In this document: one piece after another, positions 42,701-52,428 of the stretch
Layout: each line of letters opens with the position of its first letter
Position numbering within the stretch: the first letter of the stretch is position 1
Origin: Chryseobacterium vaccae
GTDB taxonomy: Bacteria; Bacteroidota; Bacteroidia; Flavobacteriales; Weeksellaceae
Direction of reading: 5' to 3'
Length of the DNA stretch: 64,000 nucleotides
Assembly: GCF_009602705.1 (NCBI RefSeq)
Contig: NZ_VSWH01000001.1
Coordinates: 3,596,001 to 3,660,000 of the forward strand
The notes under the pieces: model-generated
The model's input: only the letters and a program-made list of their open reading frames with translations
What the model was told of the DNA's origin: nothing
Databases searched by the model: none
Made by a program: the position numbers and the translations under genes

Positions 42701-42732
42701 AAAAGACTGTTCGTATTGAACGGTCTTTTTTG
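42701..42732 (+). terminator. Rho-independent terminator after psd
   Basis: 12-bp stem AAAAGACTGTTC / GAACGGTCTTTT (one G-T pair), 5-nt loop, then T run. Confidence 0.88.
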
Positions 42733-42742
42733 TTTGTGGTTA

Positions 42743-42774
42743 TGAGTTTTAATACGCGCGAGTAGAATTGAGTG
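42743..42774 (+). promoter_or_regulatory. Shared 32-bp promoter element, copy 1
   Basis: Reads TGAGTTTTAATACGCG then CGAGTAGAATTGAGTG. The other two copies carry TACGCA-N10-TGCGTA at this place; here the dyad is degenerate (TACGCG...TTGAGTG). TAATTTTG, a -7 box, starts 54 bp after the start of the dyad (42807-42814). The downstream gene is the membrane HTH regulator at 43145, with a leader of about 330 nt. Confidence 0.7.
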
Positions 42775-42806
42775 CTTAGAGTGACTCTCTGTTTTTTTTG
42801 GATGTA

Positions 42807-43144
42807 TAATTTTGTTGAACCATAAAAAACACAAATCTGCATATGTTTATTTTTTACATATTTTAATGTAATCGTGAGCTTTATATTCATTATAAGGTTC
42901 TAATTGATATATTTTTTTTATTCTAATGATTATTGTGAATTAAAAAAATATTTATATTTATCTAATCGTCATTAAGCGTGACAATTAAACACAACCACCA
43001 GTCACTTTTCTTGTTAAAATCAATATTTCAGGTATTTTTTTCTCTCCTGCAGTTTCATATGTTTTTTAACGAGTATTGATATGTGCTTAAGTAGCTATTG
43101 GTATTAATAGCTGCATAGCGTTTAAAAAAACAAAAACAAAAAAG
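42807..43144 (+). other. Promoter and long AT-rich leader of the membrane regulator
   Basis: Begins with the -7 box TAATTTTG (42807-42814). The rest is very AT-rich with no ORF longer than a few codons and no gene remnant. A second, nearer promoter for 43145 cannot be excluded. Confidence 0.45.
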
Positions 43145-44137
43145 ATGATATATGAATTTTTCGTTAAGGTGATCCATGGTCAACCTGAAAAAAATAATGC
43201 AGATTTTGAAAGCAATTATGCGAGCCTTATTAACAGGTACCTTTTGTTTTTATTCTTGTTATTCTTTTTTTATTCCGTTTTCATTATCCTTTTTTTTGGA
43301 GATATTTTGACGTCTACATTTCTCACGATAATCACTTTATTCTGGCTTTTTTTATTGTCTTTGAAAGGTAAAACAAAAAGATTTAAGAGAATTTTTAAAG
43401 GTGTTGTGTTTTCTATTTTTATTCTGTTGATATTTATTGTCAGTTTTTTTTACATATACACCTTTAAAAATGCCGGTGTAGAATACTTTTATTTTTCTTT
43501 ATTATTTGCATTGCCCTTTTTTCTCAATTACAGAGAAGATAATTATTTGGTGCTTATTGTTACTGCAATAATCAGTATCAACTTTATCAGCTGCCTTTAT
43601 TTCGATTTCAATTTTCTTCCTAAGAGTAATTTTTTTCGGGAAGGGGATTTCAAAACGGTCAGACTCCTCAATATTTTGTTTTCCATTGCTACCTTTTTTA
43701 TGGATATTGTTTTTATCAAGCAGAAAGATGATCTGATATACGGTCTAATCAAAGATACCCGCATGAAAGATTCTACCATTGAAGATCTGCTGAAGGAAAA
43801 TAAGGAACTGCTGAAACAGCAAATGCTTCTTAATGATCTTACAGAAGAAGATATACAGGAGATTTTTAGCCTTGCGGAAAATAATTCGCCCCTGTTTTAT
43901 GATAAATTTCAGATATTCTTCCCTCATTTTATTCCGGCAGTTCTGGAGTTGAATCCCGGTCTCATTTATTCTGAATTATATTTCTGTGCATTGATGAAAC
44001 TTGATTTTGATACCAAAAAAATAGCCCAATGTACCAACACCAGCATCCGGGCCGTTGAGAGCAGAAAATACAGGATCAGAAAAAAATTGAATATTCCCTC
44101 TGAAATCAACATAAACAGCTTTATTTTAAAGATCTGA
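43145..44137 (+). CDS. Membrane-bound LuxR-type HTH regulator
   Basis: 330 residues. Six predicted membrane segments in residues ~30-205 (very Phe/Leu-rich), a short coiled-coil (~208-245, KDTRMKDSTIEDLLKENKEL) and a C-terminal LuxR/GerE-like helix-turn-helix (YFCALMKLDFDTKKIAQ, then NTSIRAVESRKYRIRKKLNI). It could sense a membrane or small-molecule signal and control genes directly. Same strand as, and directly upstream of, the HTH pair and the secreted protein that share its promoter element. No known name; function inferred from architecture. Confidence 0.8.
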   Translation: MIYEFFVKVIHGQPEKNNADFESNYASLINRYLLFLFLLFFFYSVFIILFFGDILTSTFLTIITLFWLFLLSLKGKTKRFKRIFKGVVFSIFILLIFIVSFFYIYTFKNAGVEYFYFSLLFALPFFLNYREDNYLVLIVTAIISINFISCLYFDFNFLPKSNFFREGDFKTVRLLNILFSIATFFMDIVFIKQKDDLIYGLIKDTRMKDSTIEDLLKENKELLKQQMLLNDLTEEDIQEIFSLAENNSPLFYDKFQIFFPHFIPAVLELNPGLIYSELYFCALMKLDFDTKKIAQCTNTSIRAVESRKYRIRKKLNIPSEININSFILKI

Positions 44138-44148
44138 GGTTCTGTTTG

Positions 44149-44180
44149 TGATTTTTATTACGCACAAGTAGAATTGCGTA
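44149..44180 (+). promoter_or_regulatory. Shared 32-bp promoter element, copy 2
   Basis: Contains TACGCACAAGTAGAATTGCG plus TA (44159-44180), a dyad with arms TACGCA and TGCGTA 10 nt apart, preceded by TGATTTTTAT. The -7 box TACTTTTG (44214-44221) starts exactly 55 bp after the dyad start. Confidence 0.8.
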
Positions 44181-44213
44181 CCGGCATACGTCGTGTCATC
44201 ACAGGATAGAAGG

Positions 44214-44221
44214 TACTTTTG
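44214..44221 (+). promoter_or_regulatory. -7 box of the HTH pair
   Basis: TACTTTTG matches TAnnTTTG; ATG of the first HTH gene is at 44240. No -33 TTG at the usual distance, as expected for an activator-dependent promoter. Confidence 0.6.
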
Positions 44222-44239
44222 TGTGTAAGAAATAAAAAC

Positions 44240-44650
44240 ATGAATTTGAAAATTATTCATATAGGGACTTTGGTGAAATCGAAAGTCGAAGAACTCTCTA
44301 TACCCCTCGGTAGAATTGCAAAATTTATGCATTGTAATGAAGAACAGGTAGAGGATATGTATCTGCAGAATAGTATGGATACCGAAGTGCTGTTAAGATG
44401 GAGTAAGCTTCTTGAATTTGATTTTTTCAGAATATACTCAGGGCATCTGATTCTCTATGCGCCCCCTACAATGACAGACCGTACCATTAAAGTAGAAAAA
44501 TCTACTATGGTATTCAGAAAAAGTATCTATACACAGGAAGTAAAGAGTTTTATACTGGATAAAATAAAATCCGGACAGATGAGTACGGTCGAAGTCGTTT
44601 CAAAATATAAGATTCCTAAAACCACTCTTTACAAATGGATCAAAAAATGA
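44240..44650 (+). CDS. Small DNA-binding protein with HTH domains
   Basis: 136 residues from the ATG at 44240; an earlier in-frame TTG lies inside the promoter. N-terminal half resembles a Cro/XRE-like helix-turn-helix (SIPLGRIAKFMHCNEEQVEDMY, then LLRWSKLLEFDFFRIYSGHL). The C-terminal part (STVEVVSKYKIPKTTLYKWI) is a second HTH like those of transposase orfA proteins. No transposase catalytic part, IS ends or target duplication are present, so I call it a regulator. It overlaps the next gene by 4 bp. Confidence 0.75.
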   Translation: MNLKIIHIGTLVKSKVEELSIPLGRIAKFMHCNEEQVEDMYLQNSMDTEVLLRWSKLLEFDFFRIYSGHLILYAPPTMTDRTIKVEKSTMVFRKSIYTQEVKSFILDKIKSGQMSTVEVVSKYKIPKTTLYKWIKK

Positions 44651-44976
44651 GTATGCAGCATCCGGATTACCAATGCATCTACACAGATATTATCTCTGAA
44701 AAATTTCCTGAAAAATTTTCAGATCCGCTTATTCAGAAGAAACTTCAGTCGCTTTTCACCACAATAGATATTTTACAGCTTGATCAATTAATTTTCGGAG
44801 ACATGGAATATACATCCGAATTAGAAAACCAACGATTGAAATCGTATGATAAAAATTCTGTGTTGAAAATTCTTGAATATCAGAAGAAAAATAAACTGAC
44901 GAATGCCCAGACCGCAGCCCATTTTAAAATGAGCAGAAATACCCTTGCCAAGTGGAAGTCTTTATTTCAGGTATAA
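44647..44976 (+). CDS. Small HTH protein, translationally coupled
   Basis: 109 residues starting at the ATG in the ATGA overlap with the preceding stop. N-terminal part is helical without known domain (IISEKFPEKFSDPLIQKKLQ); the C-terminus (VLKILEYQKKNKLTNAQTAAHFKMSRNTLAKWKSLF) is a homeodomain-like HTH resembling orfA of IS3-type elements. It probably works with the preceding protein as a pair. No recognised family name. Confidence 0.7.
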   Translation: MSMQHPDYQCIYTDIISEKFPEKFSDPLIQKKLQSLFTTIDILQLDQLIFGDMEYTSELENQRLKSYDKNSVLKILEYQKKNKLTNAQTAAHFKMSRNTLAKWKSLFQV

Positions 44977-45047
44977 TATATAAATGATACCCACGATTTT
45001 AAAAAAGGAATGATGAGTGGGCAAAATCATATTCTGCTGAGAAAATG

Positions 45048-45079
45048 TGAGTTTTATTACGCACGCGTAGTATTGCGTA
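45048..45079 (+). promoter_or_regulatory. Shared 32-bp promoter element, copy 3
   Basis: Contains TACGCACGCGTAGTATTGCG plus TA (45058-45079) preceded by TGAGTTTTAT. Arms TACGCA and TGCGTA are 10 nt apart as in copy 2. The -7 box TACTTTTG (45113-45120) starts 55 bp after the dyad start, the same distance as in copy 2. Confidence 0.8.
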
Positions 45080-45112
45080 GCTATCTTTTAAGCTAAAAGG
45101 CTGAAAGGAATA

Positions 45113-45120
45113 TACTTTTG
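45113..45120 (+). promoter_or_regulatory. -7 box of the secreted-protein gene
   Basis: TACTTTTG, identical to the -7 box of the HTH pair; leader of about 55 nt to the ATG at 45179. Confidence 0.6.
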
Positions 45121-45178: not shown

Positions 45179-46975
45179 ATGAAAACAAAATTTACAAAAC
45201 CCAAATTAGGAGTACTGCTTTTAGTGCTACTCTTAACTTTTGGAAAACTGTATTCACAAACCAATGGGGCTGTAGGGATCAATACTGTACTGCCTAATGA
45301 AAATTCTGTACTGGATGTTGTTTCAACAGCTAATAATAAAGGGATACTTATTCCACGCCTTACAGAAGCCCAGAGAAATGCAATAATCATTAATAAAGCA
45401 GCTGATGACGGTCTTACCATCTATAATACTACGGAAGACTGCTTTAATTACTGGAGCCTGGCAGATGATGAATGGAAAAGTGTATGCGGGCAGCTTGGAA
45501 AAGCAGTGTTTACAGTTGACTGCGCCAATACCAAAGCCATGGGAACTTATGTGAAAGGTCGTGAGTTAACCCCTTCAAACTATCTGAGCATTTTTGTGAA
45601 TGTGACCAAACCAGGGAATTATACCATCTCGGGAACGACTTCCAACGGATATAATTTCTATGGAACGGGTGTTTTTCTTAATACGGGAACACAAACGATC
45701 CAGATCGCAGGACAGGGAACCCCTCTGAATATTCAGACAGATACTGTATCATTGACAGCCAATGGTACCGATATAACCTGTACTCCTCCTGTTTCTGTTA
45801 ATGTGCTCAGTCCTGCAGGAAGCTATACCATGAGCTGTGGAAGTGCAACGGTAAATGGAGTTTATAAAGTTGGAACCGCTCTTACTGCCTCCAATACAAT
45901 TACACTACCAGTTAATGTTTCCTCATTAGGAAGCTATACCATTACAACCAATACCGTAGATGGAATTTCTTTCAGAGGTTCAGGAACATTTACTGCGACA
46001 GGGAACCAGAATGTTACCTTAAGCGGAACGGGTACACCCTCTTCCACAGCCGTAAAAAAGATAACGATCACTTCTGACAGTCAGGGAGGAGTTTCTACCA
46101 CCTGCAGTGTGAATGTTATAGTGGTGATTCCTGCAAAAAAACTGCTTACAATAGGACTTGGAACAACGTATGGATATAATCTTAGCAATAGCGGAAGACC
46201 TTCCAATACATTAATTACAACCAATACTAATTATGGAACACTTCCTGCAAGTACCGTAAAATATGAAGGATGGTCTCAGATTATTGATGGAAGCAATTCT
46301 CCAAGTGCTGCCCAATTGAATACCTGGCTATTAGGCTCTGCTCCCGTTGATATCGTGGTAATAGGGTACAGCTATGGAATGAATGCTGCTGAAGCTTCCA
46401 TTTTCCTGCAATATCTGCAAAAAGGAGGTGTTGTTCTTTCATTCTGTGAAGATAATTCAGGGAATCAGAATTTCTTTAGAACAATCTTTAACGATCCGAG
46501 TATTTCTCAATCTACAACAGGAGGTTCCGGAGACGGAAGAACGTATACTTTACCCATTACTTCCGATGATATAACTAATGGTCCTTTCGGAGATATCCGG
46601 GGCAAGCTTTGGGGAGATGATGCTACAGATGTTGTATATTTTACAGGATTGCCATCAGGAGAAATAAGTGTTTACTCCAATGCGACTAATGCCAATAACA
46701 ACACAGGTACAGTTGCGGGTGCTGTCACAGCATTTAAACATAAAAGTTTCAACCTGATATGGGTTGGAGAAGGAGGATTTAATTCTCAAAGCGGAAATAC
46801 GGGTGATTTAAACTCAAGTACAATATGTCCGTTTATTTTAGATGTAAATAAAAAACCAACACCTAAAACAACTTATGGGACAGCAGGAACATTAATTTAT
46901 AATTCTACTTTTACAGCCAATGCTTTTGCATGGGCACTTAAACAGGCAGAATTCAGTGGAATTAATACAAAATGA
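45179..46975 (+). CDS. Large secreted protein with Ig-like repeats and a GATase-like C-terminal domain
   Basis: 598 residues. Signal peptide (1-27, ends KLYSQ). GAVGINTVLPNENSVLDV at 30-47 is the start module seen in many flavobacterial surface proteins. Two related ~100-residue Ig-like units follow (~105-315; both have GxYxxGxxLTxSN and GTGTP/GQGTP signals). The C-terminal ~280 residues (VDIVVIGYSYGMNAAEASIF, LQYLQKGGVVLSFCEDN) resemble a glutamine-amidotransferase-like Rossmann fold. No T9SS sorting domain or lipobox, so its final place is unclear. It has its own copy of the shared promoter element and a strong terminator. Function unknown. Confidence 0.8.
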   Translation: MKTKFTKPKLGVLLLVLLLTFGKLYSQTNGAVGINTVLPNENSVLDVVSTANNKGILIPRLTEAQRNAIIINKAADDGLTIYNTTEDCFNYWSLADDEWKSVCGQLGKAVFTVDCANTKAMGTYVKGRELTPSNYLSIFVNVTKPGNYTISGTTSNGYNFYGTGVFLNTGTQTIQIAGQGTPLNIQTDTVSLTANGTDITCTPPVSVNVLSPAGSYTMSCGSATVNGVYKVGTALTASNTITLPVNVSSLGSYTITTNTVDGISFRGSGTFTATGNQNVTLSGTGTPSSTAVKKITITSDSQGGVSTTCSVNVIVVIPAKKLLTIGLGTTYGYNLSNSGRPSNTLITTNTNYGTLPASTVKYEGWSQIIDGSNSPSAAQLNTWLLGSAPVDIVVIGYSYGMNAAEASIFLQYLQKGGVVLSFCEDNSGNQNFFRTIFNDPSISQSTTGGSGDGRTYTLPITSDDITNGPFGDIRGKLWGDDATDVVYFTGLPSGEISVYSNATNANNNTGTVAGAVTAFKHKSFNLIWVGEGGFNSQSGNTGDLNSSTICPFILDVNKKPTPKTTYGTAGTLIYNSTFTANAFAWALKQAEFSGINTK

Positions 46976-50457: not shown

Positions 50458-50998
50458 CCCGTTGTGCGTTTTAAATTATGCTTGACTTTAGATTGTTGAT
50501 TTTTTTGTTTAATAGTTTTTATTAATAAATTGAACAATTGTAAGAGCTGTAATCTTTGCTAAAACTCTTGTTTTGAATCCTTCAAATGTTTTTGCATAAT
50601 TCCTTCTTATCATAAATTGGTCACATAGCTGAGAGAATAATGGTTCAATTCTTTTTCTGTGCTTTTTAAACAAGCAAAACTGTGGTTTGTAGTCTTTTTG
50701 GTTGATTCTTTTCAGAGTTTCCAAGGTAATATTAGCATAATTAAACAAATCTACCTGTGCCTCTGATGAGAGATACCCTTTATCACCAAGCAAGATACAA
50801 TCAGACAACCGTTCTTTAATGTCCTTCAAAAAGTGAATATCATGAATAGATGCCGGACTTAGGTCTATACTTTAAAAAACACCGTTCACAGAACAAACCG
50901 CGTGAAGTTGTAGCCATAAAAAGACATTTGCTGTGATGCGCAAAAATCTCTGTTTGGATAACAATACTGTTCATCTTTACATATTTTAGAGCGTGCGT
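50458..50998 (-). mobile_element. IS982-family element, 5'-truncated copy
   Basis: Left terminal repeat CCCGTTGTGC at 50458-50467, then ~480 bp matching the transposase region of the copy at 51865-52428. Similarity stops at about 50997, inside the transposase gene, so the 5' part and the right terminal repeat are lost. Confidence 0.8.
50509..50998 (-). pseudogene. IS982-type transposase, C-terminal fragment
   Basis: Minus strand. The C-terminal part is open (ERLSDCILLGDKGYLSSEAQ, KKHRKRIEPLFSQLCDQFMI, stop at 50511-50509), typical of the IS982 DDE domain. Upstream, KICKDEQYCYPNRDFCASQQ can be read to ~50998 only with a frameshift near 50900. No start codon. Inactive. Confidence 0.85.
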
Positions 50999-51864: not shown

Positions 51865-52428
51865 AACCCGTTGTGCGTTTTAAATTATGCTTGACTTTAG
51901 ATTATTGATTTTTTTGTTTAAATAGTTTTTATTAATAAATTGAACAATTGTAAGAGCTGTAATCTTTGCTAAAACTCTTGTTTTGAATCCTTCAAATGTT
52001 TTTGCATAATTCCTTCTTATTACTTTGAAAAACACGGTTCAAAGAACAAACCGAATGAAGTTTGTAGCCATAAAAAGACATTTGCTGTGATGCGCAAAAA
52101 CCTCTGTTTGGATAACAATACTGTTTATCTTTACATATTTTAGAGCGTGCGCTTCTGGAGATTTTACAGATTTCCAAAGGCATACTGTCGACAATACCCA
52201 TATATTCGGCAGTCAAGACGAGGCTTACAACCTCTAAATCCTTCATTTTGGGAATACGTCTCTGGTAAGATAAAAGTGTTTCATCTGAAATTTCCCGTAA
52301 AACCTCCAAAATTCTTTCGTAATTTGCAATTAAGTTGTTCATTGTAAATGTTTTGTGGTAAAAACAATTTACTGATTTTCAATCGAATGAACAACTTATT
52401 TCTTTGTATTCATAATGCACAACGGGTT
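51865..52428 (-). mobile_element. IS982-family element, copy with both ends and an internal deletion
   Basis: 564 bp bounded by perfect 12-bp inverted repeats AACCCGTTGTGC (51865-51876) and GCACAACGGGTT (52417-52428). The middle of the transposase gene is missing, so the element is short for the family (~1 kb). It could be mobilised only in trans. Confidence 0.88.
51880..52342 (-). pseudogene. IS982-type transposase with internal deletion
   Basis: The N-terminal ~105 residues are intact from ATG 52342 (NNLIANYERILEVLREISDE, PKMKDLEVVSLVLTAEYMGI, ICKDKQYCYPNRGFC). At about 52023 the reading jumps to the C-terminal segment (RRNYAKTFEGFKTRVLAKIT) in a different frame. The DDE core is therefore missing. 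Confidence 0.85.

Follow-up and report, generated by a model that had tools for sequence, protein, structure and literature searches.

A 32-bp element at fixed distance from the -7 box as candidate operator of a membrane-embedded LuxR-type regulator in Chryseobacterium vaccae

We analyzed a stretch of 64,000 nt (the window) from the 5.1-Mb genome of Chryseobacterium vaccae (G000; assembly GCF_009602705.1, contig NZ_VSWH01000001.1, positions 3,596,001–3,660,000 of the forward strand), in which three copies of a 32-bp element precede the genes for a membrane-embedded LuxR-type regulator (REG1), a pair of small helix-turn-helix (HTH) proteins (HTH2 and HTH3) and a large protein designated ADH. 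The element is probably the operator of REG1 in a dedicated, self-activating class-I promoter system at a single locus, where we infer the binding, the sign of activation and the start sites from sequence. The features that carry this interpretation are listed below, with E-values for the copies taken from a sequence model that itself contains them.

42743..42774, + strand: element copy 1, 5' of the REG1 gene, TGAGTTTTAA-TACGCGCGAGTAGAATTGAGTG; E 1.6e-10
42807..42814, + strand: -7 box TAATTTTG of copy 1, 54 bp past the copy-1 TAC
43145..44137, + strand: REG1, membrane-embedded LuxR-type regulator with six predicted membrane helices, a long helix and a C-terminal HTH (residues 264–330)
44149..44180, + strand: element copy 2, between the genes at 43145 and 44240, TGATTTTTAT-TACGCACAAGTAGAATTGCGTA; E 5.5e-9
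44214..44221, + strand: -7 box TACTTTTG of copy 2, 55 bp past the copy-2 TAC
44240..44650, + strand: HTH2, small protein with a C-terminal transposase-like HTH (below the Pfam cut-off)
44635..44976, + strand: HTH3, partner small HTH protein; open reading frame (ORF) from 44635, with the ATG at 44647 also possible
45048..45079, + strand: element copy 3, 5' of the ADH gene, TGAGTTTTAT-TACGCACGCGTAGTATTGCGTA; E 1.0e-13
45113..45120, + strand: -7 box TACTTTTG of copy 3, 55 bp past the copy-3 TAC
45179..46975, + strand: ADH (a label of this analysis), 598 amino acids, with predicted Ig-like domains and a ThuA-like C-terminal domain

Results

Specificity of the element within the C. vaccae genome

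A TGAGTTTTA-like flank begins at 42743, 44149 and 45048, and a TACGCR-type core at 42753, 44159 and 45058. The copies are 899, 1406 and 2305 bp apart, and a repeat search of the window grouped them as one family of 40 nt, in which the other two are 80% and 70% identical to copy 1. An earlier sequence-only reading of this DNA had given their sequence and coordinates, as well as the TAnnTTTG boxes at 54, 55 and 55 bp from the TAC, correctly. We built a sequence model of 76 positions, spanning element and box, from 69 copies, the three window copies among them. A search of the whole genome with this model returned exactly three sites (E <=5.5e-9), all at this locus, and the next best match had an E-value of 1.33; the regulon in C. 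vaccae consists of three promoters at one locus. Given that all three copies were in the training set, their E-values are partly a matter of construction, and independent support therefore comes from conservation in relatives.

The simple dyad TACGCA-N10-TGCGTA was rejected as the operator because it is unspecific once mismatches are allowed. Its exact matches in the window are the two intact copies only, and with up to three mismatches it matched 18 times (11.4 expected), a number reached by 5 of 100 shuffles. Copy 1 has three mismatches to the dyad, and at this tolerance the genome yielded five matches for the short pattern and five for a mirrored control, so that copy 1 is not distinguishable by the short pattern alone. 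We also set aside a two-mismatch match elsewhere in the genome (C1:1932325) and its twin in G026, identical over 22 letters, both of which lack a box at 54/55; the former is absent from the model's six matches with E up to 10.

Conservation of the element and its spacing in relatives

Our genus set comprised 173 Chryseobacterium genomes, in which presence of the element per genome was judged at E 0.01, individual places being listed to about E 1e-6 only. In a model search of related genomes, along the lines proposed in the sequence-only reading, a match was found in all 70 genomes with a REG1 orthologue (>320 bits; the window's genome included). Among the 103 genomes with no REG1 orthologue, matches were found in three, namely G054, which retains a remnant of the locus, and G087 (E 0.009) and G161 (E 0.006), where they are marginal. 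For 24 REG1-bearing genomes, the list of model matches is complete up to E 1; the sole place outside the locus at E <0.01 lies 5' of a REG1 paralogue in G097, and one extra match within the locus of G146 comes from reading the palindrome in reverse orientation. The short pattern with two mismatches had matches in 64 of the 173 genomes. G007, G019, G083 and G084 were among these and showed no model match at E 0.01, the match in G162 sits within a large ORF (stretch L072), and one recurring type of match reads TACGCA-N4-GTAAAATTACGTA.

Of 79 stretches fetched from relatives, 69 contain a REG1 orthologue in the same neighborhood, and the remaining ten are the locus remnant of G054 (L073), two chance matches (L072 and L074) and REG1 paralogue loci (L119–L125). 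We scanned 71 stretches with a weight matrix derived from 88 distinct seed copies, the box excluded, which spans positions −12 to +24 when the TAC of the element is numbered from +1, a numbering that places the 32-bp unit at −10 to +22. The matrix found 166 copies, with none in L111, whose copy carries an insertion. The next gene is ADH for 64 copies, REG1 for 50 and HTH2 for 46, with no such gene for 6. Matches in the opposite orientation were limited to two (L038 and L052), each overlapping a forward copy.

For 159 of the 166 copies, the distance from the TAC to a TAnnTTT box was 54 or 55 bp. The full TAnnTTTG box started at +54 in 80 copies, at +55 in 45 and at +56 in 2, compared with a mean of 0.07 at the other offsets from 24 to 109. 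Within 48–60 bp it was present for 48/50 REG1, 62/64 ADH, 12/46 HTH2 and 5/6 other copies, and HTH2-class promoters mostly read TAnnTTTA. Element-to-gene-start distances had a standard deviation of 20–134 bp by class, whereas for the distance to the box it was 0.5 (133 copies; those removed comprise 24 whose mechanically assigned gene start fell within 40 bp, 6 that no gene follows and 3 lacking a box). In 124 pairs of promoters from the same genome, 75% of the element was shared, compared with 35% of the spacer. This difference, together with the constancy of the box distance, therefore indicates constraint rather than recent duplication.

The TAnnTTTG box of flavobacterial sigma-A promoters lies at −12 to −5 relative to the transcription start, as given in the excerpted text of PMC9723704. 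With the box placed accordingly, the central palindrome of the element would be centered at −60.5 or −61.5. A TTG was found 18–22 bp 5' of the box in 1/47 promoters of the REG1 class, 2/45 of the HTH2 class and 26/59 of the ADH class, and the rarity of a −33-spaced TTG in the REG1 and HTH2 promoters is as would be expected for dependence on an activator.

Anatomy of the putative operator

The conserved core is a 12-bp palindrome, TACKCR-YGMGTA, the half-sites of which abut, with an outer half-site about one helical turn away on each side. The four half-sites are TGAGT at −10, TACKCR at +1 (inverted), YGMGTA at +7 and TGCGTA at +17. Near-invariant columns comprise TTT (−6 to −4), TAC (1–3), GT (10–11), TT (16–17) and GT (20–21), and of 148 distinct copies, 144 or more agree at each column of the TAC and of the GT at 10–11. 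The dyad that the sequence-only reading had emphasized is indeed present, as the inverted half-site joined with the outer right half-site, but the main unit is the palindrome with its two outer half-sites. The abutting central pair and the outer sites would point to recognition by a dimer of dimers. We took the inner palindrome as the core because four ADH-side sites in a second genus (g23, described below) have a degenerate outer right arm and intact arms CACTC/GAGTG; intact arms are what the search pattern required, but these are all of its matches in the four g23 genomes. An RNA stem formed by the palindrome was rejected, because 102 of 139 distinct copies have G/A or T/C, non-complementary pairs, at positions 4 and 9.

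REG1 as the best candidate for the binding protein

REG1 is the constant partner of the element, the two being kept together in the 14 of 69 loci that lack HTH2 and HTH3 and in the 6 of 69 that lack the ADH gene. Given that the element persists without HTH2 and HTH3 and that its letters change with the recognition helix of REG1, the evidence singles out REG1, which we regard as the best candidate for the protein that binds it. The products of the genes at 43145, 44240 and 44647 had all been put forward as binders; the first is now favored, and the other two are absent from those 14 loci.

The C-terminus of REG1 is predicted to adopt a four-helix GerE-type HTH fold, and the element has inverted TAC...GTA half-sites, as do operators of LuxR-type (GerE) regulators. 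A GerE match at E <=0.01 was obtained for 6 of 39 REG1 family members (best E 6.2e-4). REG1 showed no Pfam match to a receiver domain, its N-terminus consisting of hydrophobic helices. The NCBI name "Two component regulator three Y domain-containing protein" was rejected, in that Pfam and NCBI family searches revealed no such domain. The C-terminal 77 residues match the C-terminal part of the BT3442 family (NF053779) with E 1.6e-6 and 27.1 bits, compared with a cut-off of 940. Residues 22–230, which contain the predicted six helices and long helix, superpose on the membrane anchors of the adenylyl cyclases Rv1625c and AC9, a lead to be read with the fact that helical bundles reach such Z scores without kinship.

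Variant elements beside REG1 homologues

The REG1 paralogues in G017, G096 and G097 are accompanied by a variant element, CACTCG/TACTCG-TGAGTA...TGAGTG, with the box at 54, 54 and 55 bp, respectively. In the four genomes of genus g23, which is probably Elizabethkingia (one REG1 match is from Elizabethkingia ursingii), a REG1 pair and an ADH-like gene have CACTCRYGAGTG in common. Each g23 genome has exactly two occurrences of this sequence, both within this locus and followed by boxes at 55 and 54 bp. The recognition helix reads KSVES or KSIES in the paralogue and g23 regulators and RAVES or RAIES in the Chryseobacterium orthologues; the REG1 of L050, which ends before this helix, was left out of the comparison. 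In a tree, the two g23 regulators separated, one joining the clade of the paralogues and the other that of REG1.

Among relatives with ~30% identity, L197, L200, L201, L202 and L205 have TACTCG/CACTCG-like sites at exactly 55 bp, which are suggestive only, having been chosen by eye among 22 upstream regions after the boxes were seen. No clear element was found in L119, L123–L125, L194–L196, L198, L199, L203, L204 or L206, and a regular expression did not detect the architecture in relatives of the TPR-LuxR type (L207–L209). A related-looking site, TACTCTTGAGAAGTATCTGAGTA, was noticed in L209 (4320–4392, minus strand, G033; E 0.28, box at 59 by hand count), 5' of a large gene beside TPR-LuxR-like regulators, and may hint at a wider operator class.

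HTH2, HTH3 and the ADH gene

HTH2 is present in 55 of the 69 REG1 loci of relatives. Its family has 13 copies in the C. vaccae genome, the other 12 being 47–54% identical to HTH2 and 11 of these having an adjoining HTH3 copy. At these 12 further places in the genome, neither a box-associated site of this architecture nor a common operator was seen. Several HTH2 copies adjoin large ORFs, and three HTH2 loci contain weak matches to ADH.

From its N-terminus, ADH is probably secreted and may be the cargo of the system. In L045 (6706–7494) and L046 (7777–8592), both with psd on the plus strand, ADH is replaced by a protein of 262–271 amino acids behind the same element. These replacement proteins had no BLAST match to ADH; their N-terminal stretch looks similar to that of ADH (VGIGITEP, LTVPRLT).

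Matrix scores of ADH-side copies were 43–59 in 56 of 64 cases and 25–41 in the others. In L114–L116 (G074, G063 and G062), the ADH gene is deleted and the orphan elements score 31, 25 and 19; in L073, a natural deletion has removed all four genes and one element is kept, with no box at 54/55. Copies left without a gene thus look decayed.

Discussion

We propose that REG1 would be activated through a signal perceived by its membrane domain and, as a dimer or a dimer of dimers, would bind from the inner membrane to the central palindrome and the outer half-sites, TGAGT ~10 bp upstream and TGCGTA 10 bp downstream. REG1 would then occupy positions ~−77 to −45 and act as a class-I activator, bringing RNA polymerase to promoters that have a −7 box and in which the −33 box is weak or missing. 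REG1, the HTH2–HTH3 pair and the secreted protein would be switched on together in a self-amplifying, single-locus circuit. The sequence-only reading had suggested activator-dependent promoters of a small regulon that includes its own regulators; conservation of sequence and spacing in ~70 species, and the presence of sites at the regulator and secreted-protein genes, are in accord with it, and activation is the part that we infer.

Several observations weigh against this proposal. With regard to the protein, the Pfam GerE family (PF00196) scores below its gathering threshold for REG1 (12.6 versus 23.5 bits), the REG1 family profile had no match at E 0.01 among PDB chains, Foldseek gave none below E 0.25, and the fold match relies on a model with a predicted template modeling score (pTM) of 0.51. 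With regard to the sites, the ~70 genomes are kin and so amount to fewer independent observations than their number, and these loci also supplied the training copies for both model and matrix. In 24/45 HTH2-class promoters a TTG occurs at 16 bp, a spacing below the usual one that may nevertheless be used, and the activator may be dispensable at the 26/59 ADH promoters with a TTG at 18–22 bp. The switch in helix and half-site may represent only one or two events, with long branches making the count uncertain. Finally, a REG1 paralogue at 44–46% identity (L119, G125) lacks a recognizable element, and several relatives at ~30% identity have no clear site of this architecture alongside.

Given that autoregulation by repression is common, REG1 might instead bind the element as a repressor, with the three copies at one locus forming loops or blocking RNA polymerase. 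The normally spaced TTG retained in part of the ADH promoters would suit such negative autoregulation, but the fixed position of 54/55 bp, upstream of the core promoter, and the rarity of that TTG in the regulator promoters fit activation, and we consider repression improbable. It is quite improbable that HTH2, HTH3 or both bind the element in place of REG1: the C-termini of both proteins are DNA-binding-like, and in 46 of 71 stretches a copy has HTH2 next, but the element is retained where both genes are missing, the other HTH2 places of the genome lack the architecture and box, and four g23 loci have the variant element beside two REG1 homologues and no HTH2 match. That the element is a dispersed repeat, a recombination site or an RNA hairpin is hardly credible, for although segments between copies are absent in some genomes (HTH2/HTH3 in L044 and L055, all four genes in L073), the deletion junctions of L073 and L044, judged by eye, do not lie between element copies, the orphan copies of L114–L116 score low, positions 4 and 9 oppose an RNA stem, and model matches in the genome are confined to the locus, with the box at a fixed distance.

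The REG1 operator proposed here differs from those of known systems. In NarL/FixJ regulators (GerE, LuxR-type HTH), E. coli NarL binds 7-2-7 sites, whereas the half-sites of the element abut (6-0-6), two further half-sites lie a helical turn out, at 10 bp, and the position is fixed to within ~1 bp across ~70 species; unlike NarL-type response regulators, REG1 has six predicted membrane helices and no receiver domain. The class I activator CRP at lac is centered at −61.5, similar to the center estimated here (−60.5/−61.5), and belongs to a different protein family. The superposition of the predicted membrane part of REG1 on the membrane anchors of adenylyl cyclases (Rv1625c/Cya and human AC9) may reflect helical packing alone, and REG1 lacks a cyclase domain. 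All three promoters of the locus carry the TAnnTTTG box of flavobacterial sigma-A promoters, whereas the regulator promoters as a class rarely have a normally spaced −33 TTG, and a fixed-distance upstream element is not among the motifs named in the excerpt of PMC9723704. In Bacteroides thetaiotaomicron, BT_3442, next to a MACPF gene cluster, heads a putative operon with surface-type proteins (PMC2954219, excerpt); the BT3442 family resembles REG1 in its C-terminal 77 residues and surface-type gene context, but it has TPR motifs where REG1 has a membrane domain, and that excerpt mentions no operator. The sequence-only reading knew of no described flavobacterial operator of this sequence, and neither such an operator nor REG1 was found described in the titles and abstract openings of open-licence PMC articles among the matches listed, a collection in which subscription papers are mostly not included. 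A PadR regulator (PMC10812688) is, from its excerpt, unrelated.

The system suggests how a secreted protein may be controlled by a switch that sits in the inner membrane, is private to it and amplifies itself, the cargo having been exchanged in two species and the switch kept. To our knowledge, few flavobacterial operators are known; here a candidate operator comes with its likely partner, an exact geometry across ~70 species and, from a second genus, naturally occurring variants. Both the code of binding and the rule of distance in class-I activation in Bacteroidota thereby become directly testable. More tentatively, the locus might be one instance of a general, swappable module for surface-protein expression in Weeksellaceae-type bacteria, a generalization toward which we are evenly disposed at best. 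Each six-helix LuxR-type regulator would have a private four-half-site operator 54/55 bp before the −7 box, serving its own gene and one or two secreted-protein genes only, with letters that co-vary with the recognition helix and a frozen geometry. If so, the regulators of such modules would constitute a readable code of protein–DNA specificity, and a membrane-tethered activator would be able to impose single-base-pair geometry on Bacteroidota promoters.

Additional features of the window

The gene order is ftsH–cdsA–psd, a hairpin, copy 1, REG1, copy 2, HTH2, HTH3, copy 3 and ADH, followed by a small gene and an ABC transporter on the opposite strand; the names ftsH, cdsA, ABC and M28 were assigned by the look of the sequence, psd alone being supported by Pfam. 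Among the 69 loci, the small gene is absent in L059, L061, L144 and L145, and the L144 stretch does not include psd.

42701..42729, + strand: terminator-like hairpin after psd, just 5' of copy 1

The transcription start of the copy-1 promoter is predicted at ~42819. The predicted REG1 leader (42819–43144) would be ~325 nt, compared with ~165–940 in relatives, which is long for such a gene; it has no Rfam match, and an Rfam scan of the window gave no match at gathering score. Elsewhere in the window, ORF fragments at 50509–50829 and 51880–52342, transposase-like by look, have the C-terminal peptide RRNYAKTFEGFKTRVLAKITALTIVQFINKNY in common and are probably remnants of one insertion-sequence type.

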